Positions 9,498 to 17,491 of a stretch of DNA of 64,000 nucleotides are shown here, piece after piece. The notes beneath the pieces were generated by a model. That model saw only the letters and a program-made list of their open reading frames with translations. It had not been told where the DNA came from and did not search any database. Every line of letters begins with the position of its first letter. Position 1 is the first letter of the stretch. The position numbers and the translations under genes are program-made. This DNA comes from Pelagihabitans pacificus (lineage in GTDB: Bacteria; Bacteroidota; Bacteroidia; Flavobacteriales; Flavobacteriaceae). Location: assembly GCF_009371985.2 (NCBI RefSeq), contig NZ_VIKU02000005.1, positions 1 to 64,000 of the forward strand, read 5' to 3'.

Positions 9498-9944
9498 ATG
9501 AATGTAGAGCAGGTCATAAAAACCAAGCGGGAAATTCCTCTTAAAAGCAGAACCGTTATTCATTTTATGCTGGTGAACAACAAAATCAACGAACGTATTA
9601 CCGCCGTATTAAAACCTTTCGAGGTATCGCTACAACAATTCAATGTACTTCGGATTCTACGGGGACAAGAAGGAAAACCGGCCAACTTATCCACCTTGAA
9701 CGAACGTATGGTGACCAAAATGAGTAATACTACCCGATTGGTCTACAAGTTATTGCTAAAAGGCTATGTGGACAGGGCTACATGTCCGTCCAACAGAAGA
9801 AAAGTAGAAATAACCATCACCGAACACGGGAAAAATGCACTAAAAAAAATGGATGTGGCAATGCAGAATGCCGAGGATGATATCCTAAAAAATTTCTCGG
9901 ATGAGGAACTCAAAGAGTTGAATAACTTGTTTAATAAGTTTTAA
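9498..9944 (+). CDS. MarR family transcriptional regulator
   Basis: This is a 148-residue winged-helix protein. Helical dimerisation segments flank a DNA-binding core (about 45-110) containing NVLRILRGQEGKPANLSTL, a recognition-helix region MVTKMSNTTRLVYKLLLKGY, and the wing SNRRKVEITITEHGK. MarR proteins are usually repressors released by small ligands or oxidation. It precedes a yceI gene by 52 nt, a pairing typical of Flavobacteriia, which makes yceI a likely target. A perfect palindrome on its own promoter supports autoregulation. Confidence 0.9.
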   Translation: MNVEQVIKTKREIPLKSRTVIHFMLVNNKINERITAVLKPFEVSLQQFNVLRILRGQEGKPANLSTLNERMVTKMSNTTRLVYKLLLKGYVDRATCPSNRRKVEITITEHGKNALKKMDVAMQNAEDDILKNFSDEELKELNNLFNKF

Positions 9945-9996
9945 TACATCGTAAAACAGAAACACTAATTATTAATTAAATTTAAATTTTAAAACA

Positions 9997-10575
9997 ATGA
10001 AAAAAGGAGTAGTAAGTTTAGCATTCGCACTGGTATTTGGTTTTGCAGCCACTGCAACCGAGCCCTTAGCCGATGAAAAAAAGGAAGTAAAAACGGATGC
10101 CAGCAAGGTCACCTGGAAAGCTTATAAGGTAACCGGGTCCCATTACGGAAGTATTGCACTAGAAGAAGGAGCTTTGGTATTCGATGGGGACAAACTGACC
10201 GGGGGAGAGTTCGTAGTAGACATGACTACCATCAATACAGAGGATTTGGAAGGCGAGTACAAGCAAAAATTGGACGGACACTTAAACTCCGCCGATTTTT
10301 TTGATACCGCAAATCACAAAACATCCTCCCTAAAGTTTACGGAAGTTAAATCTACCGGCAAGAATTCCTACGAGGTCACAGGCGATTTAACCATCAAAGG
10401 CATTACAAAGCCAATCACTTTTGACGTATCGATCTACGGGAGCAAAGCAACCGCTACTATGAAAGTAGACCGTACCAATTACGATGTCAAATACGGTTCT
10501 GGAAGCTTTTTCGACAACCTGGGGGACAAAACCATTTACGATGAATTCGACCTTGTAGTAGATTTGGAATTCTAG
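9997..10575 (+). CDS. YceI family periplasmic protein
   Basis: This 192-residue YceI-family lipocalin-like beta-barrel protein is exported by an N-terminal signal peptide (MKKGVVSLAFALVFGFAATA). Family features include VTWKAYKVTGSHYGSI at the start of the mature part, the LNSADFFDTANHKTSSLKF segment and the LTIKGITKPITFDV segment. YceI barrels bind isoprenoid-like lipids in some structures; the ligand here is unknown. It follows marR and is closed by a strong terminator, so the two probably form a bicistronic unit. Confidence 0.9.
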   Translation: MKKGVVSLAFALVFGFAATATEPLADEKKEVKTDASKVTWKAYKVTGSHYGSIALEEGALVFDGDKLTGGEFVVDMTTINTEDLEGEYKQKLDGHLNSADFFDTANHKTSSLKFTEVKSTGKNSYEVTGDLTIKGITKPITFDVSIYGSKATATMKVDRTNYDVKYGSGSFFDNLGDKTIYDEFDLVVDLEF

Positions 10576-10613
10576 AACACCATATGATTTAAATAGGCTT
10601 AACCTCACAGCCT

Positions 10614-10655
10614 GGAGCCTTGAAACTATCATAGTTTCGAGGCTCCATAATTTTT
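10614..10655 (+). terminator. Terminator of marR–yceI
   Basis: A long hairpin pairs GGAGCCT-t-GAAACTAT with ATAGTTTC-g-AGGCTCC and is followed by ATAATTTTT. It insulates the trp promoter that begins 15 nt later. Confidence 0.85.
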
Positions 10656-10669
10656 ATGCCCCAAGCGAT

Positions 10670-10699
10670 TTGTATTTATTAAAATCATTTCTATATTTG
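10670..10699 (+). promoter_or_regulatory. trp operon promoter
   Basis: TTG (10670-10672), 19 nt, TATATTTG (10692-10699) is an exact Bacteroidota promoter. The -7 element ends only five bases before the ATG of the leader peptide, so transcription should start at or within a base or two of that ATG. Confidence 0.8.
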
Positions 10700-10704
10700 A
10701 ACCA

Positions 10705-10761
10705 ATGAAAAGTAATGGAACAAATACTTGGTGGTGGTTTGACTCCCGACGAACATCGTGA
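10705..10761 (+). CDS. trpL: trp operon leader peptide with three tandem Trp codons
   Basis: This 18-codon frame encodes MKSNGTNTWWWFDSRRTS. The three consecutive Trp codons (10729-10737) are the hallmark of a Trp-sensing attenuator. It is followed by a terminator hairpin and then trpE. No ribosome binding site precedes it and the promoter places the transcript 5' end at the ATG, so it is probably translated from a leaderless mRNA. The stop codon lies inside the segment that can pair with the terminator (10756-10761). Confidence 0.85.
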   Translation: MKSNGTNTWWWFDSRRTS

Positions 10762-10820
10762 GCTGAACTTCATTATAGTACAACTATAGAGGGCCTGTCA
10801 TCACGACAGGCCTTCCTTTT
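10756..10820 (+). promoter_or_regulatory. trp attenuator: switch segment, pause hairpin and terminator
   Basis: The terminator pairs GGCCTGTC (10792-10799) with GACAGGCC (10805-10812) and is followed by a T-rich run. Upstream, TCGTGA (10756-10761, containing the leader stop codon) is exactly complementary to TCACGA (10801-10806) in the terminator loop and 3' arm, and a small hairpin TATAGT-aca-ACTATA (10774-10788) lies between. Stalling at the Trp codons would leave TCGTGA free to break the terminator. A ribosome at the stop codon would cover it and allow termination. The pairing model is inference from complementarity. Confidence 0.75.
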
Positions 10821-10837
10821 TTATCAACAATCGTACA

Positions 10838-12235
10838 ATGCGTTACCAACTCGAAACACATTCCAAAAAAATCCTGGCCGATACTATTACTCCGGTCAGT
10901 GTGTATCTAAAAATTAGGGATCGATTCCCGAACAGTATCCTTTTGGAAAGCAGCGACTACCATGCGAACGATAATAGTTTCTCTTACATCTGTTGCAATC
11001 CGATTGCTTCCATCAAAGTTGAAAATGAGATGGTTTCGCAGCAATTTCCCGATGGCACATCCCACGAGATGGGTATCTCGTCGGATTCCGATGTAGTGGA
11101 AATCATTCACGATTTCAGCAAAAAGTTTAAGGCGGGGGAAAATAGTTTCAAATTTATCGATAACGGGTTGTTCGGCTATATGGCCTACGATGCGGTTCGT
11201 TATTTTGAGGCGGTCGAAATAAATAAGAAAAAAGGGTCGGTGGCAATACCTGACATCTATTACGCCGTATACCAAAATATCATCGCCATCAATCACTTCA
11301 AAAACGAGGCCTATCTGTTTGCCCACTGTTTCGAGTCTGACAACAATATCCCTGAACTAGAGCGACTTTTGAATGTCAAAAATTTTGCTTCCTATAATTT
11401 TTCAACCGAAGGAGAGCCCGTTTCCAACTTGGAGGATGAAGAATATAAGGAACATGTACGGTTGGCCAAAAAACATTGTCAACGCGGTGATGTCTTTCAG
11501 TTGGTTCTGTCCCGAAGATTTTCCCAAGGGTTTAAAGGCGACGAGTTTAACGTTTATAGGGCGCTACGGTCCGTCAACCCATCACCCTACCTTTTTTATT
11601 TTGACTACGGGGACTTTAAAATTTTCGGAAGTTCCCCGGAAGCACAGTTGATCGTCAAGGATGGAAAAGCCGAAATACACCCGATTGCAGGTACTTTTAA
11701 AAGAACGGGAAATGACGAGGAAGACGCCAAATTGGCCAAAGCGCTTACCGAAGACGATAAGGAAAACAGTGAGCACGTAATGTTGGTTGATCTCGCAAGG
11801 AACGACCTTAGTCGAAATGGCAATATGGTTAAAGTGGCCAACTACCGGGAAGTGCAGTTTTTTTCCCATGTAATCCATTTGGTCTCCAAGGTAACCGGGC
11901 AAAAGAAGACCGACATTCCCACTATGAAGGTCGTAGCGGACACCTTCCCGGCAGGAACCCTGAGCGGTGCGCCCAAGCATAGGGCCATGCAACTCATTGA
12001 GCAATACGAAAAGACAAGCAGGGGCTACTATGGCGGTGCTATTGGATTCATGGATTTCAACGGGAATTTTAACCACGCCATCATGATCCGTACCTTTTTA
12101 AGCAAAAACCACCATTTGCACTATCAGGCCGGTGCCGGATTGGTTGCTGCCTCCGATCCGGAGGATGAACTGCAAGAGACCTATAATAAGCTAGGCGCCC
12201 TGACAAAGGCGTTGGAAATCGCTAAAACCATATGA
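10838..12235 (+). CDS. trpE: Anthranilate synthase component I
   Basis: This 465-residue chorismate-binding enzyme converts chorismate and ammonia (from TrpG) to anthranilate, the first step of tryptophan synthesis. The N-terminus has the LLES element of the tryptophan feedback site (ILLESSDYH, about 33-41). The catalytic domain carries PSPYLFYFDYGDFKIFGSSPE, IAGTFKRTG, LVDLARNDLSRNG and FPAGTLSGAPKHRAMQLIE. It is the first gene of a complete operon. Its stop overlaps the trpG start (ATGA), typical of partners made in equal amounts. It is under attenuator control. Confidence 0.97.
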   Translation: MRYQLETHSKKILADTITPVSVYLKIRDRFPNSILLESSDYHANDNSFSYICCNPIASIKVENEMVSQQFPDGTSHEMGISSDSDVVEIIHDFSKKFKAGENSFKFIDNGLFGYMAYDAVRYFEAVEINKKKGSVAIPDIYYAVYQNIIAINHFKNEAYLFAHCFESDNNIPELERLLNVKNFASYNFSTEGEPVSNLEDEEYKEHVRLAKKHCQRGDVFQLVLSRRFSQGFKGDEFNVYRALRSVNPSPYLFYFDYGDFKIFGSSPEAQLIVKDGKAEIHPIAGTFKRTGNDEEDAKLAKALTEDDKENSEHVMLVDLARNDLSRNGNMVKVANYREVQFFSHVIHLVSKVTGQKKTDIPTMKVVADTFPAGTLSGAPKHRAMQLIEQYEKTSRGYYGGAIGFMDFNGNFNHAIMIRTFLSKNHHLHYQAGAGLVAASDPEDELQETYNKLGALTKALEIAKTI

Positions 12236-12801
12236 AGATGAAGAAGATTTTAGTGATCGATAATTACGACAGTTTTACCTATAATCTTGTACATTATTTA
12301 GAAGACTTAGGTTGTGAAGTGGTCGTAAAACGCAACGACCAACTCACCTTGGAAGAAGTCGATGCCTACGAAAAAATAGTATTGTCCCCGGGACCTGGGA
12401 TCCCGGATGAGGCCGGCCTCTTAAAGGCAATTATTTCGGCCTATGCCCCGACAAAAAGTATCTTTGGTGTGTGCTTGGGTCAACAGGCAATCGGGGAAGT
12501 CTTTGGAGGCTCACTCATCAATCTCGACGAAGTATACCATGGGATCGCTACCAAGATAAACATTGCCGAGGACGATGTTCTTTTTGAAGGGATGCCCAAA
12601 GAAATCGAGGTCGGACGATACCATTCATGGGTCGTTTCCCCTGAGCTTCCAGCGGTTTTGGAAGCGACTTCCTTTGATGAAAACGGACAGGTCATGTCGT
12701 TGCGCCACAAAGAATATGATGTGCGCGCGGTACAGTTTCATCCCGAGTCGGTCTTAACACCTCAAGGGAAGAAAATATTGGAAAATTGGTTGGAAAACTA
12801 A
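12232..12801 (+). CDS. trpG: Anthranilate synthase component II (glutamine amidotransferase)
   Basis: This 189-residue class I glutamine amidotransferase supplies ammonia to TrpE. The nucleophile is Cys81 (FGVCLGQQAIG), and His170 and Glu172 are in VQFHPES, completing the triad. The N-terminus ILVIDNYDSFTYNLVHYL is diagnostic. It starts inside the trpE stop codon. A second ATG two codons in (12238) is possible. The same subunit could in principle also serve folate synthesis, but the operon points to tryptophan. Confidence 0.96.
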   Translation: MKMKKILVIDNYDSFTYNLVHYLEDLGCEVVVKRNDQLTLEEVDAYEKIVLSPGPGIPDEAGLLKAIISAYAPTKSIFGVCLGQQAIGEVFGGSLINLDEVYHGIATKINIAEDDVLFEGMPKEIEVGRYHSWVVSPELPAVLEATSFDENGQVMSLRHKEYDVRAVQFHPESVLTPQGKKILENWLEN

Positions 12802-12886
12802 CCTTAATTTACTTCGACTTATGAACGGATATTGAAGCAAAAATGGGATTCTCCTTTTGCACGAATGGAAACTAAAAGCCCTCTTA

Positions 12887-13879
12887 ATGAAAGAAACACT
12901 CAACAAACTCATTAACCACGAACTCCTCTCCAAGGAAGAGGCGAAACAAATCTTGGTGAATATCGCCATCGGGGAGTACAATACCAGCCAAATAGCTGCT
13001 TTCTTGACAGTATATATGATGAGAAGTGTCACCATCGAAGAACTGGAAGGCTTTCGGGATGCCCTGCTGGAATTATGCTTGGCGGTCGATTTGTCCGACT
13101 ACAATCCTATTGATCTATGCGGAACGGGCGGGGATGGTAAGGATACCTTCAATATATCGACCTTGGCCTCTTTCGTGACCGCCGGGGCGGATGTTAAGGT
13201 AACCAAGCATGGCAACTATGGCGTATCTTCGAAATGTGGCAGCAGCAATGTCATGGAGTTTTTGGGTATCAAATTCAGCAACGAGGCGGACTTTTTGAAA
13301 AAATCGATCGATGAGGCGGGAATCTGTGTACTGCATGCGCCGCTCTTTCATCCTGCAATGAAAAATGTAGCTCCTATTCGAAGGGAGCTTGGTGTCAAGA
13401 CCTTTTTTAACATGTTGGGGCCTATGGTAAACCCTGCTTTCCCAAAAAATCAGATGGTCGGGGTCTTTAATCTGGAGCTGGCCCGTATGTATGGCTATCT
13501 CTATCAGAATACCGATAAAAAATTTACGGTATTGCATGCACTGGATGGCTATGATGAAATATCTTTGACCGGAAGCACCAAGACGATTTCCAACGAGTCG
13601 GAGGGCATGCTACGTCCCGAGGATTTTGGGGTATCGGCCATAGCACAAGCCGATATCGTTGGTGGCGACAACATTGAAGAATCAGCTCAAATTTTCATGA
13701 AAGTACTTGAAGGCAATGGTACAGAGCCACAGAACAATGTAGTATGTGCCAATGCAGGAATAGCCATTGCCACGGTCAAGAACCTCGGTCCGAAAGAAGG
13801 TTTTGAAAAGGCCAAGGAATCGTTGTTGAGCGGAAAGGGCCTGGATGCGTTGAAGAAATTGCAGCAATTGAGTCGATAG
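12887..13879 (+). CDS. trpD: Anthranilate phosphoribosyltransferase
   Basis: This enzyme transfers the phosphoribosyl group of PRPP to anthranilate. The PRPP-binding glycine loop reads DLCGTGGDGKDTFNISTL, followed by KHGNYGVSSKCGSSNVMEFLG and the NMLGPMVNP region. The frame opens earlier at a TTG (12857), but MKETLNKLINHELLSKEEA matches the normal family N-terminus, so I use the ATG at 12887 (330 residues). It is a monofunctional TrpD, not fused to TrpG. Confidence 0.95.
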   Translation: MKETLNKLINHELLSKEEAKQILVNIAIGEYNTSQIAAFLTVYMMRSVTIEELEGFRDALLELCLAVDLSDYNPIDLCGTGGDGKDTFNISTLASFVTAGADVKVTKHGNYGVSSKCGSSNVMEFLGIKFSNEADFLKKSIDEAGICVLHAPLFHPAMKNVAPIRRELGVKTFFNMLGPMVNPAFPKNQMVGVFNLELARMYGYLYQNTDKKFTVLHALDGYDEISLTGSTKTISNESEGMLRPEDFGVSAIAQADIVGGDNIEESAQIFMKVLEGNGTEPQNNVVCANAGIAIATVKNLGPKEGFEKAKESLLSGKGLDALKKLQQLSR

Positions 13880-13882
13880 TTT

Positions 13883-13908
13883 CCCTGTGAGAAAGGGGCA
13901 TCACAGGG
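13883..13908 (+). other. Hairpin between trpD and trpC
   Basis: CCCTGTGA (13883-13890) pairs perfectly with TCACAGGG (13901-13908) around a 10-nt loop, four bases after the trpD stop. No T run follows, so it is not a standard terminator. It may be an mRNA processing or stability element. A weak promoter-like TACTTTG follows before trpC. Confidence 0.5.
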
Positions 13909-13961
13909 TTGTTTGTATACCCTTCCGGCCCTACTTTGTATGAGGAAGTTAAAAATAAAAA

Positions 13962-14744
13962 ATGAGCATTCTAGATAAAATAGTAGCGGACAAACGGAAG
14001 GAGGTCGATTTGAAAAAATCGCTCATCCCGATATCCTATTTGGAAAACTCCGTGTTATTCAATCGGGAAACGGTTTCCCTGTCGGATGCACTTCGCAGAA
14101 GTGACACGGGTATCATTGCCGAACACAAAAGGAGGTCCCCCTCGAAATCGGAAATTAATCAGGGACTTAATGTGCAGCAAGTCGTGCAAGGCTATCAAAA
14201 TGCAGGGGTATGCGGTATATCGGTCTTGACCGATGGTAAATATTTTGGTGGGTCGTTGGATGATCTTTTATTGGCCCGTGCCTCGGTTCGGATACCCTTG
14301 TTACGCAAGGAATTCATTATCGATGAATACCAACTTTTGGAAGCCAAGGCCCATGGTGCCGATGTCGTTCTTTTGATTGCGGCCATACTCACTAGAGATG
14401 AAATCAAGACCTTTTCGGAATTGGCCAAAAGTTTAGGGTTGGAGGTACTTCTGGAAGTGCATAACCAGGAGGAGCTGCAGAAATCAAGGTTGTACAGCCT
14501 TGACATGCTTGGTGTGAACAATCGAAATCTGAAGACTTTTGAAGTGAGTCTGGAGACCAGTAAATCGCTCTCCAAACTGATTCCTGAGGAGTTTGTAAAA
14601 GTGTCGGAAAGTGGTATCAGCAACATTACGGCCATCCGGGATTTACAGGTCTATGGATACCAAGGGTTTTTAATCGGAGAGAACTTTATGAAGACCGATA
14701 ATCCCGGACAATATGCGATGGACTTCATAAAACAACTCAAATAA
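13962..14744 (+). CDS. trpC: Indole-3-glycerol-phosphate synthase
   Basis: This 260-residue TIM-barrel enzyme closes the indole ring from CdRP. Family residues are visible in IIAEHKRRSPSKSEI (about 50), VCGISVLTDGKYFGGS, PLLRKEFIIDEYQL, LLEVHNQEEL, GVNNRNLKTFEV and VSESGI. It is a separate protein rather than the TrpC–TrpF fusion of enterobacteria. trpF follows after six bases. Confidence 0.96.
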   Translation: MSILDKIVADKRKEVDLKKSLIPISYLENSVLFNRETVSLSDALRRSDTGIIAEHKRRSPSKSEINQGLNVQQVVQGYQNAGVCGISVLTDGKYFGGSLDDLLLARASVRIPLLRKEFIIDEYQLLEAKAHGADVVLLIAAILTRDEIKTFSELAKSLGLEVLLEVHNQEELQKSRLYSLDMLGVNNRNLKTFEVSLETSKSLSKLIPEEFVKVSESGISNITAIRDLQVYGYQGFLIGENFMKTDNPGQYAMDFIKQLK

Positions 14745-14750
14745 CGATTC

Positions 14751-15431
14751 ATGGAGTACTACTATACCAATAAAAAAGATACTGTCAGCAACGGTGGCAC
14801 AGCTGCATTGAAGCTAAAGGTATGTGGTATGAACAAAAACACTTCGGAAGTCGCGAGCTTGAACCCGGATTATTTAGGTTTCATATTCTGGGAACCCTCC
14901 AAGCGTTCCTTTGAAGGGGATATGCCATCGATACCCCATCGTATCAAGAAGGTGGGGGTTTTTGTAGATGCGACTATGGAAATCATCGCTGAAAAAGTCG
15001 ATACCTACGGATTGCTAATGGTGCAATTACACGGAAATGAAAGTCCGGGGTTTTGCGATACACTAAAAGCACGTCTTCCACAGATAAAAATTATCAAGGT
15101 GTTCTCGATCAAAGACAACTTTGATTTCACCATCTTACGACATTTTGAGGATGTTTGCGATTTTTATTTATTCGATGCCAAGGGTGAACTTCCCGGAGGC
15201 AATGGGTATGGTTTCGATTGGAAGGCAATGGCCAGTTATCCCTCGATCAAACCCTACTTTTTGAGTGGGGGTATTGGATTGGAACAATTGGAATCACTTC
15301 AAGAATTTTTAAAACGGCCCGAATCAAAGTACTGTCACGCTATTGATATCAACAGTCGATTTGAAATCGAGCCCGGATTGAAAGATGTAAAAAGATTAGG
15401 GCAGTTCAAGAAATTACTAAGTATCGATTAA
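14751..15431 (+). CDS. trpF: Phosphoribosylanthranilate isomerase
   Basis: This TIM-barrel enzyme isomerises PRA to CdRP. The catalytic Cys is in LKVCGMN, and the general-acid Asp is in the [14 protein letters not shown] region. The C-terminal SGGIGLEQ and [16 protein letters not shown] are standard. The frame from the only upstream ATG gives 226 residues with about 20 extra N-terminal residues. A TTG at 14808, just before KLKVCGM, would give a family-length protein, so the start is open. Confidence 0.94.
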
Positions 15432-15436
15432 GTGCT

Positions 15437-16666
15437 ATGAAACGAAAAAAAAGGACCACTACCATTTCGGGGGAGACCGAAAGGAAATCTTATCACGCAG
15501 ACGAAAAGGGTAATTATGGAGAGTTCGGGGGGGCCTACATCCCTGAAATGCTGTACCCTAATACCGAGGAACTACGGCAAAACTATCTTCGAATCATGGC
15601 CGACCCTTCCTTTCAAAGGGAGTTCGACCACTTGCTCAAAGACTATGTAGGTCGCCCTACACCGCTGTACTTCGCAGAACGACTCTCCCAAAAATATGGA
15701 ACAAAAATCTACCTCAAACGGGAAGACCTATGTCACACAGGTGCACATAAAGTAAACAACACCATCGGGCAAATCTTGATGGCGAAAAAATTGGGCAAAA
15801 ACCGCATCATCGCAGAAACCGGGGCAGGGCAACACGGGGTCGCCACGGCAACGGTCTGTGCCCTAATGGGCATTGAATGCGTGGTGTATATGGGAGAAAT
15901 AGACATCGCCCGTCAAGCTCCGAACGTCGCCCGTATGAAAATGTTGGGTGCTAAAGTGCGCCCGGCACTTTCCGGTAGTCGTACCCTTAAGGATGCCACT
16001 AACGAAGCCATTCGCGATTGGATCAACAACCCGGTCGATACCCATTATATTATCGGATCGGTGGTGGGGCCGCACCCCTACCCCGATATGGTAGCCCGTT
16101 TTCAGTCGGTCATCTCCGAGGAAATCAAATGGCAGCTCAAAGAAAAGGAAGGACGTGAAAATCCCGATTACGTGGTCGCCTGCGTTGGAGGTGGCAGCAA
16201 TGCGGCCGGTGCCTATTTCCATTATCTAGATGTTCCCGAAGTAGGAATCATTGCCGTGGAAGCAGCTGGAAAAGGTATAGATACCGGGGAAAGTGCCGCG
16301 ACTTCGGCCTTGGGAAAAGTAGGCATCATCCACGGGAGCAAGACCCTCTTGATGCAGACCCAAGACGGCCAGATTACCGAACCCTATTCCATTTCAGCCG
16401 GACTCGATTACCCAGGAGTAGGGCCTATGCACGCGCATCTGTTCAAATCGGGTCGAGGGGAATTTATCTCGATTACCGACGATGAAGCCATGACGGCCGG
16501 ATTAGAAGTTTCGCAATTGGAGGGCATCATTCCCGCCATCGAAACCTCCCACGCCTTTGCCATTTTCGATTATAAACAATTCAAGGAAGACGATGTGGTC
16601 GTAATTAATTTATCTGGGCGAGGAGACAAGGATTTACAGACGTATATAGACTATTTCAAACTATAA
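15437..16666 (+). CDS. trpB: Tryptophan synthase beta chain
   Basis: This 409-residue PLP enzyme condenses indole with serine. The PLP lysine lies in the [13 protein letters not shown] motif (about residue 109), the phosphate-binding loop is [11 protein letters not shown], and the catalytic glutamate region is [14 protein letters not shown]. An N-terminal extension of about 20 basic residues precedes the conserved [15 protein letters not shown]. It belongs to the TrpB1 class that pairs with TrpA. Confidence 0.97.
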
Positions 16667-16726
16667 AATGAGTAAAGAGTATGCTGTAAAAAGTAATCAG
16701 TAGACTTTGTTACTCGTATTTTTAAT

Positions 16727-17491
16727 ATGAACCGAATCAATCAAAAACTCCAGGAAGATAAAAAACTCCTCTCAATCTATTTCACAGCGGGTTATCCAGC
16801 GCTCAACGATACCGTACCCATTATTCGGGAGTTGGAAAAAAACGGGGTGGACATGATCGAGATCGGGCTGCCCTTTAGTGATCCTTTGGCGGATGGCCCC
16901 ACCATACAGGCCAGCTCTACCGCCGCCTTGCAGAATGGTATGCGTACCGAGCTTCTTTTCGAACAATTAAAGGATATTCGTAAGACCGTTTCGATACCCC
17001 TGATTGTAATGGGCTATTTTAATCCCATGCTCCAATACGGGGTGGAGGCTTTTTGCAGAAAGTGCCATGAAATCGGAATCGATGGAATCATCATGCCCGA
17101 TCTCCCCTTGGATGTTTACCAAGAGCAATACGAGGCTATTTTCACAAAATACGGACTCATCAATGTTTTCTTGATTACTCCCCAAACCAGTGAAGAACGT
17201 ATTCGTCAAATCGATGGAGCCTCGGCAGGCTTCATTTACATGGTGAGCTCCGCCAGTGTGACCGGCTCGAAAGATGGTTTTGGGAATGCCCAGACCGATT
17301 ATTTCGAACGAATCGCCAGGATGGGTTTGAAAAATCCCCAAATCGTAGGTTTTGGCATCAGCAATGCCGAAACCTTTCAAGCAGCTACAGAAACGGCTAA
17401 GGGAGCCATTATCGGCTCGGCCTTCATTAAGCATTTAACGGACTACGGTATCGCGACTATCGGTGATTTCGTTGAAAAAATAAAATCGTGA
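16727..17491 (+). CDS. trpA: Tryptophan synthase alpha chain
   Basis: This 254-residue TIM barrel cleaves indole-3-glycerol phosphate to indole and G3P. Catalytic Glu and Asp are in DMIEIGLPFSDPLADGPTIQ (about 44-63) and DGIIMPDLPLD. FIYMVSSASVTGSK and VGFGISNAET form the phosphate-binding part. Its stop codon overlaps the GTG of the following small membrane protein gene (GTGA), tying that gene to the operon. Confidence 0.97.
   Translation: MNRINQKLQEDKKLLSIYFTAGYPALNDTVPIIRELEKNGVDMIEIGLPFSDPLADGPTIQASSTAALQNGMRTELLFEQLKDIRKTVSIPLIVMGYFNPMLQYGVEAFCRKCHEIGIDGIIMPDLPLDVYQEQYEAIFTKYGLINVFLITPQTSEERIRQIDGASAGFIYMVSSASVTGSKDGFGNAQTDYFERIARMGLKNPQIVGFGISNAETFQAATETAKGAIIGSAFIKHLTDYGIATIGDFVEKIKS

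Follow-up and report, generated by a model that had tools for sequence, protein, structure and literature searches.

The seven-gene tryptophan operon of Pelagihabitans pacificus, trpEGDCFBA, is quite probably controlled by a ribosome-mediated transcription attenuator in which the antiterminator is a pairing between a strand at the 3' end of the leader ORF (A) and the apex of the terminator hairpin (A'). The leader ORF, the terminator, the conservation and covariation of A:A' and the support for a protector segment (P) that pairs with A are computational observations. The window, that is, the whole stretch of 64,000 nucleotides that was analysed, comes from a genome of 4.56 Mb; its leader sits in the gap between a YceI-family gene and trpE, with the trp genes on its 3' side (Table 1). 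The YceI-family gene and a gene for a MarR-family regulator (together 9498-10575, same strand) lie directly 5' of the trp operon, and a hairpin of 16 bp with a T-rich tail (10613-10647) follows the YceI-family gene: it is probably a terminator that insulates the trp promoter.

Table 1. The trp leader and operon: features in window coordinates
Feature	Position	Strand	Basis
Promoter-like pair: TTTG (10669-10672), 19 nt, TATATTTG (10692-10699)	10669..10699	+	sequence
Leader peptide ORF, 18 codons, MKSNGTNTWWWFDSRRTS*	10705..10761	+	sequence
P, putative protector CTCCCGA; pairs with A (CTC.CGA with TCG.GAG)	10743..10749	+	lowest-energy fold, swap test
A, candidate antiterminator strand TCGTGA(G); overlaps stop TGA (10759-10761)	10756..10762	+	sequence, covariation, swaps
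Small spacer hairpin between A and terminator	10774..10788	+	lowest-energy fold
Intrinsic terminator hairpin GAGGGCCTGTC-ATCAC-GACAGGCCTTC, loop ATCAC 10800-10804	10789..10815	+	fold, terminator scan
A', TCACGA, partner of A: terminator loop and first two bases of 3' arm	10801..10806	+	covariation, swaps
trpE	10838..12235	+	Pfam PF04715 and PF00425
trpG-trpA, rest of operon after trpE	12232..17491	+	
trpG	start 12232	+	Pfam GATase
trpD	start 12857 (TTG) or 12881 (ATG)	+	Pfam Glycos_transf_3
trpC	start 13962	+	Pfam IGPS
trpF	start 14751	+	Pfam PRAI
trpB	start 15437	+	Pfam PALP
trpA	start 16727	+	Pfam Trp_syntA

A reading of the sequence alone had proposed a promoter, an 18-codon frame with three tandem Trp codons, a small hairpin and a terminator with a T run before trpE, and sequence and fold show each of these in its place, the promoter as a promoter-like pair. 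The frame runs from ATG (10705-10707) through TGG TGG TGG (10729-10737) to TGA (10759-10761). The terminator hairpin is followed by CTTTTTT (T-rich tail 10814-10822); terminator-like sites number two in 501 bases as against 0.3 expected, the second being the hairpin after the upstream gene, and leader and terminator exceed chance in the window sequence. The small spacer hairpin differs in sequence from clade to clade.

The TTTG box is taken by us to be the upstream promoter element. TATATTTG, which is separated from the leader ATG by 5 nt, is of the TAnnTTTG type and hence absent from the sigma-70 scan list; TAnnTTTG is the main flavobacterial promoter motif according to PMC9723704. Of 235 leaders, 229 carry it in the 60 nt that precede the leader start, as against 6.4% of shuffles; the commonest gap to the leader start is 5 nt (53 leaders). 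The 5' UTR may possibly be very short or absent in the window and its kin, although the range of the gap (4-42 nt) argues against a strict need for this. At 74 of the best 80 named trpE loci a tandem-Trp leader lies within 350 nt of trpE; at the other six the Trp codons are found, by eye, 467-554 nt upstream, behind an inserted ORF. The six named relatives with this small ORF between attenuator and trpE are L043, L084, L101, L107, L109 and L110; in L107 (1677-1961) it encodes a GIY-YIG domain protein, the other five appear similar by eye, and it might be under Trp control.

The central claim of the sequence-only reading, that TCGTGA (10756-10761) is exactly complementary to TCACGA (10801-10806), is correct to the base. 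Taken by itself, the 6-nt match falls short of significance (P about 0.07). When the 51 bases from Trp codons to terminator were dinucleotide-shuffled 5000 times, 7.0% of the shuffles contained six or more consecutive bases complementary to loop and 3' apex, and 13% reached an equal or better duplex energy. On its own it is not worth reporting; significance comes only with the relatives. A scan of TrpE relatives, from which the best 80 of 581 loci were kept (the 80 nearest named trpE loci; the nearest named relatives are Flavobacteriaceae), finds TGGTGG..CGTGA..C[AG]CGAC upstream of trpE in every one of these 80. The lack of conserved complementarity in close relatives had been set in advance as a ground for rejection; the complementarity is retained in all 80 of these best 80 of 581, and it covaries over 135 chosen leaders.

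Those 135 leaders (alignment A1, made with MAFFT) are mostly one per genus, with almost none from the 80 named loci. Over the eight A:A' pairs, 87.2% of cells are standard (84.6%, sd 0.3, in shuffles), and double-change cells number 33 where shuffles give 7.9; sliding the partners by 1-3 columns leaves 20-49% paired and at most 12 double-change cells. The terminator stem served as the positive control: its ten pairs are 99.6% paired over the same leaders, with 74 double-change cells against 9.9 in shuffles. The two outermost A:A' pairs are loose (unpaired in 71 and 40 of the 135), while each of the inner six is unpaired in only 1-12. G-U pairs are tolerated, with as many as 12 UG or GU cells in a column pair, which points to RNA.

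Exchanging A' between leaders provides a second line of evidence. Over 236 unique leaders the duplex energy with the leader's own A' averages -9.65 kcal/mol, as against -9.08 (sd 0.07) with swapped partners, and none of 200 swaps does as well; the means are -10.18 and -8.97 for 60 distinct A' windows, and -10.25 and -8.22 for the 28 of these without TCACGA (0 of 500 swaps in either case). (This version supersedes a looser-parsed test of 237 leaders, L204 excluded, which gave -9.19 against -8.78 with sd 0.06 over 20 swaps.) Compensated examples include a TAA stop codon with loop CTTACG (L183, L185), TGTCGCAA with TTGCGACA (L238), and TCGCGA with TCGCGA (L031). Of the 236 leaders, 231 have their best duplex between -9 and +12 nt relative to the stop codon. 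Five leaders are exceptions: L032 and L265, in which the duplex-energy test finds A:A' absent; the misparsed L037; and L170 and L182, in which TCGTRA is paired, the strand lies well 5' of the stop codon and the ORF continues far past it. L166 scores weakly by energy (-4.8), though inspection by eye shows a single register in which 11 of the 12 positions about its stop codon could pair, a number of them as G-U.

A technical note on the sample: 256 of 264 loci (L004-L266 and the window) yielded a parsed leader, and the eight that did not comprise six with the leader further upstream (found later) together with L171 and L177. L007 was excluded as a misparse; L037, from the window's own genome, is a misparse that remains within the sets of 236, 60 and 28 and was left out of the P:A swap test, the terminator-side test and the within-group swaps. 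Rows with a weak or missing A were left out of the P:A swap test (233 used) and the folding snapshots (234 used). Many loci represent the same genomes reached through two collections, only identical leaders having been merged, and the evidence base amounts to two families plus single leaders from others.

The covariation and swap tests of A:A' ignore kinship, and inside single families the swap signal is weaker: 20 of 1000 swaps are as good within family f25 (17 leaders), and 45 of 1000 within the window's family when each distinct A' is represented once (44 leaders), falling to 3 of 1000 for the 16 of those 44 that lack TCACGAC; for the window's family and others together (216 leaders) the count is 0 of 300. 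On a TrpE tree of 65 of the 81 rows (the others having fewer than 200 TrpE residues or none), the compensated rows L237 and L238 stand beside unlike neighbours. With nine of the 65 excluded from pair counts for a shifted register, the outermost A:A' pair is standard in 32 of 56 rows, in an independent-pairs test with few independent changes. Taken together, the comparative evidence supports the proposed A:A' pairing well.

How closely is A bound to the stop codon? The sequence-only reading took the stop-codon segment itself to be the antiterminator strand. Comparison supports the strand; the stop codon turns out not to be essential to it. Of 234 leaders, 161 have the stop codon wholly inside A and 7 have it overlapping A; in the remaining 66 it falls to one side of A, 5' or 3', by 0-3 nt in 58 cases, and L056, L061 and L078 keep CGTGAGC even though their stop codon is 5' of the strand. 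The distance from the third Trp codon to A has a median of 18 nt (5-95%: 16-19), which fits a stalled ribosome covering P and not A.

The same reading held that the four competing arms of the enterobacterial design were dispensed with. That view is not supported: P is predicted to pair with A, making four segments as in enterobacteria. In the lowest-energy fold 10743-10749 is paired with 10756-10762. Over 233 leaders the mean energy of P:A is -6.81. Swapping A raises it to -5.87 (sd 0.10), the best of 100 swaps reaching -6.14, and shuffling P raises it to -3.36. Fixed columns show P:A poorly, partly because the pairing includes a bulge in some leaders: 56.6% is paired there, and a slide of -3, at 54.1%, exceeds it in covariation score and in double-change cells. 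It is thus the swap test that argues for P:A; the fixed-column count alone does not show it.

Which side of the terminator does A address? For 235 trp leaders, separate parts of the terminator were compared as partners of the RNA between Trp codons and terminator. The pairing energy is -9.69 with loop plus 3' apex (shuffles -4.08, swapped -9.14) and -6.77 with 5' apex plus loop (shuffles -4.74). Pairing of this RNA with the 5' arm was rejected, two tests having yielded no signal: the 5' arm alone is below chance, at -4.49 against -5.24 in shuffles, with a similar outcome in the second test. The 3' arm alone gives -3.88 against -4.38. That the antiterminator strand is predicted to pair with loop and 3' apex, and not with the 5' arm, is the unusual point of this leader.

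The terminator loops bearing TCAC differ in length on the 5' side (ATCAC, TATCAC, AATCAC, AAATCAC). Pairing aimed at the tip would explain both the strong conservation of TCAC and the variable length of the other side of the loop, and it yields base-exact predictions for compensatory mutants. One clade (L234, L219, L242, L167, L168) has an altered terminator stem (GGCTTATC/GATAAGCC); its strand, GTGAGA or GTGAGG, can pair with TCTCAC or TCTCAT, and the register there would therefore be shifted toward the 5' side of the tip.

The window genome also has a His leader peptide, MINKKVHHHFYCCAQAR, with the residues HHH, preceding a terminator 5' of hisG (L267), and the last part of this ORF is complementary to the tip of the terminator on the 5' side. 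The his set comprises all 21 hisG loci found in 31 genomes, some of them closely related. In that set, pairing with the 5' arm alone stands at -8.33 (shuffles -4.53, swapped -7.23), better than any of 60 swaps, the best of which reached -8.06. For 5' apex plus loop the value is -9.06 (shuffles -5.41), which the best of 60 swaps surpasses at -9.20, so that this pairing does not hold up in the swap test; and for the 3' apex no pairing signal was found in these 21 leaders. In both systems the terminator apex is a potential partner for the end of the leader ORF; the his leader, in mirror image of trp, pairs with the 5' arm and the apex's 5' side. The genome appears to hold two attenuators aimed at opposite sides of the terminator tip, which is offered as a lead.

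Could the trp loop match be incidental, with the true antiterminator pairing an upstream segment with the terminator 5' arm in the classical enterobacterial manner? This is the textbook design, and the his leaders of the window genome and its relatives resemble it; for trp it is improbable, the RNA between Trp codons and terminator pairing worse than shuffles with the 5' arm and far better than shuffles with loop and 3' apex. Nor is it at all likely that A and the loop form a pseudoknot that stabilises the terminator, with A promoting termination. A' is mostly loop, and A:A' need not in principle disrupt the lower stem; but A' also includes the first bases of the 3' arm, so that the top of the stem must open, the 0-1 nt left to bridge a helix of 6-7 bp are too few for known H-type pseudoknots, and P:A would be left without a role.

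More improbable still is a role of the two segments in DNA and not in RNA. TCGTGA and TCACGA do form a spaced inverted repeat close to the promoter, as the halves of an operator for a repressor might; yet one half changes where a G-U pair remains, and the spacing from A to the terminator is variable (23 to 39 nt, 5-95%). Operator halves were accordingly set aside as unlikely.

How, then, might attenuation through A:A' work? Ribosome stalling, masking, their timing and the effect on expression are what we infer. When charged tRNA-Trp is low, the ribosome would stall at TGG TGG TGG and cover P, leaving A free; once RNA polymerase clears the terminator loop, A would pair with A' and keep the hairpin from zipping at the apex until polymerase leaves the T tract, and trpE would be transcribed. 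(Since they share bases, A:A' and a closed apex are presumed to be mutually exclusive.) With enough Trp, a ribosome at the stop codon, in or beside A, would mask A and allow the terminator to form; with no translation, P would pair with A, to the same end.

Folding snapshots, in a model without pseudoknots, bear on the timing. With the 3' arm exposed to its fourth base, mean A:A' is 0.96 when P is covered (above 0.5 in 230 of 234 leaders) and 0.46 when P is free (above 0.5 in 104). Once the terminator is exposed in full, it stands at 0.92-0.95 and A:A' at no more than 0.04 (0.92 and 0.04 with P covered). Because the complete terminator wins thermodynamically even with P covered, the switch must be kinetic: A would need to hold the apex only while polymerase crosses the T tract. 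The discrimination calculated for the window itself is modest, with A:A' at 0.74 when P is covered as against 0.52 when it is free, and P:A at 0.17 in the latter case.

One can generalize from trp and his to apex-blocking attenuation in the leader-peptide attenuators of this group, a proposal to which we lean by a small measure: a strand of 5-9 nt at the end of the leader ORF would pair with the terminator tip, on the loop and 3' side in trp and the 5' side in his, and prevent nucleation with no arm sequestered. If true, it would afford fast kinetic control with very little sequence, and tip-aimed pairing would mean that antitermination is possible without contact with the terminator 5' arm.

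How much of this is already known? The Bacteroid-trp motif is listed in Table 1 of Weinberg et al. 2010 (PMC2864571) and has been noted 5' of trp in F. psychrophilum (PMC6414381). Of two transcriptome studies, the F. psychrophilum work offers strong clues of leader-peptide attenuation at amino-acid operons (PMC9723704) and the B. thetaiotaomicron map records short ORFs reminiscent of leader peptides (PMC7366714); the portions covered of PMC2965389, PMC1262725 and PMC4833913 hold nothing on this trp leader. The literature covered yielded no mechanism for the Bacteroidota trp leader; the supplement of Weinberg 2010 and the survey of Lopatovskaya et al. 2010 lay outside its scope, and an earlier description is possible.

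The corresponding Rfam model, RF01692, matches the leader over its full length at 41.1 bits (E 7.6e-4, permissive search of 201 bases), under the curated cut-off of 49; a whole-genome search of the window genome with strict filters gave no match to it. The other ten permissive Rfam matches at the leader have E of at least 1.8, and the window's hits at gathering scores are limited to two tRNAs. A T-box leader was considered and rejected, the T-box covariance model matching neither the window at gathering scores nor the leader at permissive settings. Among nine relatives' loci searched with RF01692, six pass the cut-off (including L116 at 75.4 and L107 at 59.1), while L033, L031 and L183 fail. 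In the window's family, Flavobacteriaceae, 140 of 199 genomes match at E <= 0.001, 122 of them over the cut-off, and these 140 do not include the window genome. Of 296 genomes drawn from the phylum, 29 match, 27 in the window's family, one in its order and one in its class; in f25, the family of the class-level match, 19 of 61 match.

Like RF01692, the window's leader lies 5' of trp biosynthesis genes in a member of the Bacteroidota and has its tandem-Trp ORF inside a conserved hairpin around the Trp codons. It is homologous to Bacteroid-trp, without being a formal hit. The model ends at GGCUUGUC, which is the terminator 5' arm, and so holds neither the loop nor A:A'. With the enterobacterial trp attenuator (trpL) the leader shares a tandem-Trp leader peptide (regulatory codons before an intrinsic terminator), an antiterminator, a protector that, by the swap test, competes for the antiterminator strand, and the ribosome as putative sensor. 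The enterobacterial antiterminator pairs with the terminator 5' arm, a pairing that is no better than shuffled here, where loop and 3' apex take its place. The C. glutamicum ilvBNC attenuator, as described in PMC11857589, likewise has an anti-antiterminator and an antiterminator that overlaps a short part of the terminator, from which the trp leader differs in that the overlapped part is the apex. Given its homology to RF01692, the attenuator is of a known Bacteroidota kind and not a new one, its predicted pairing with the terminator tip being a testable variant.
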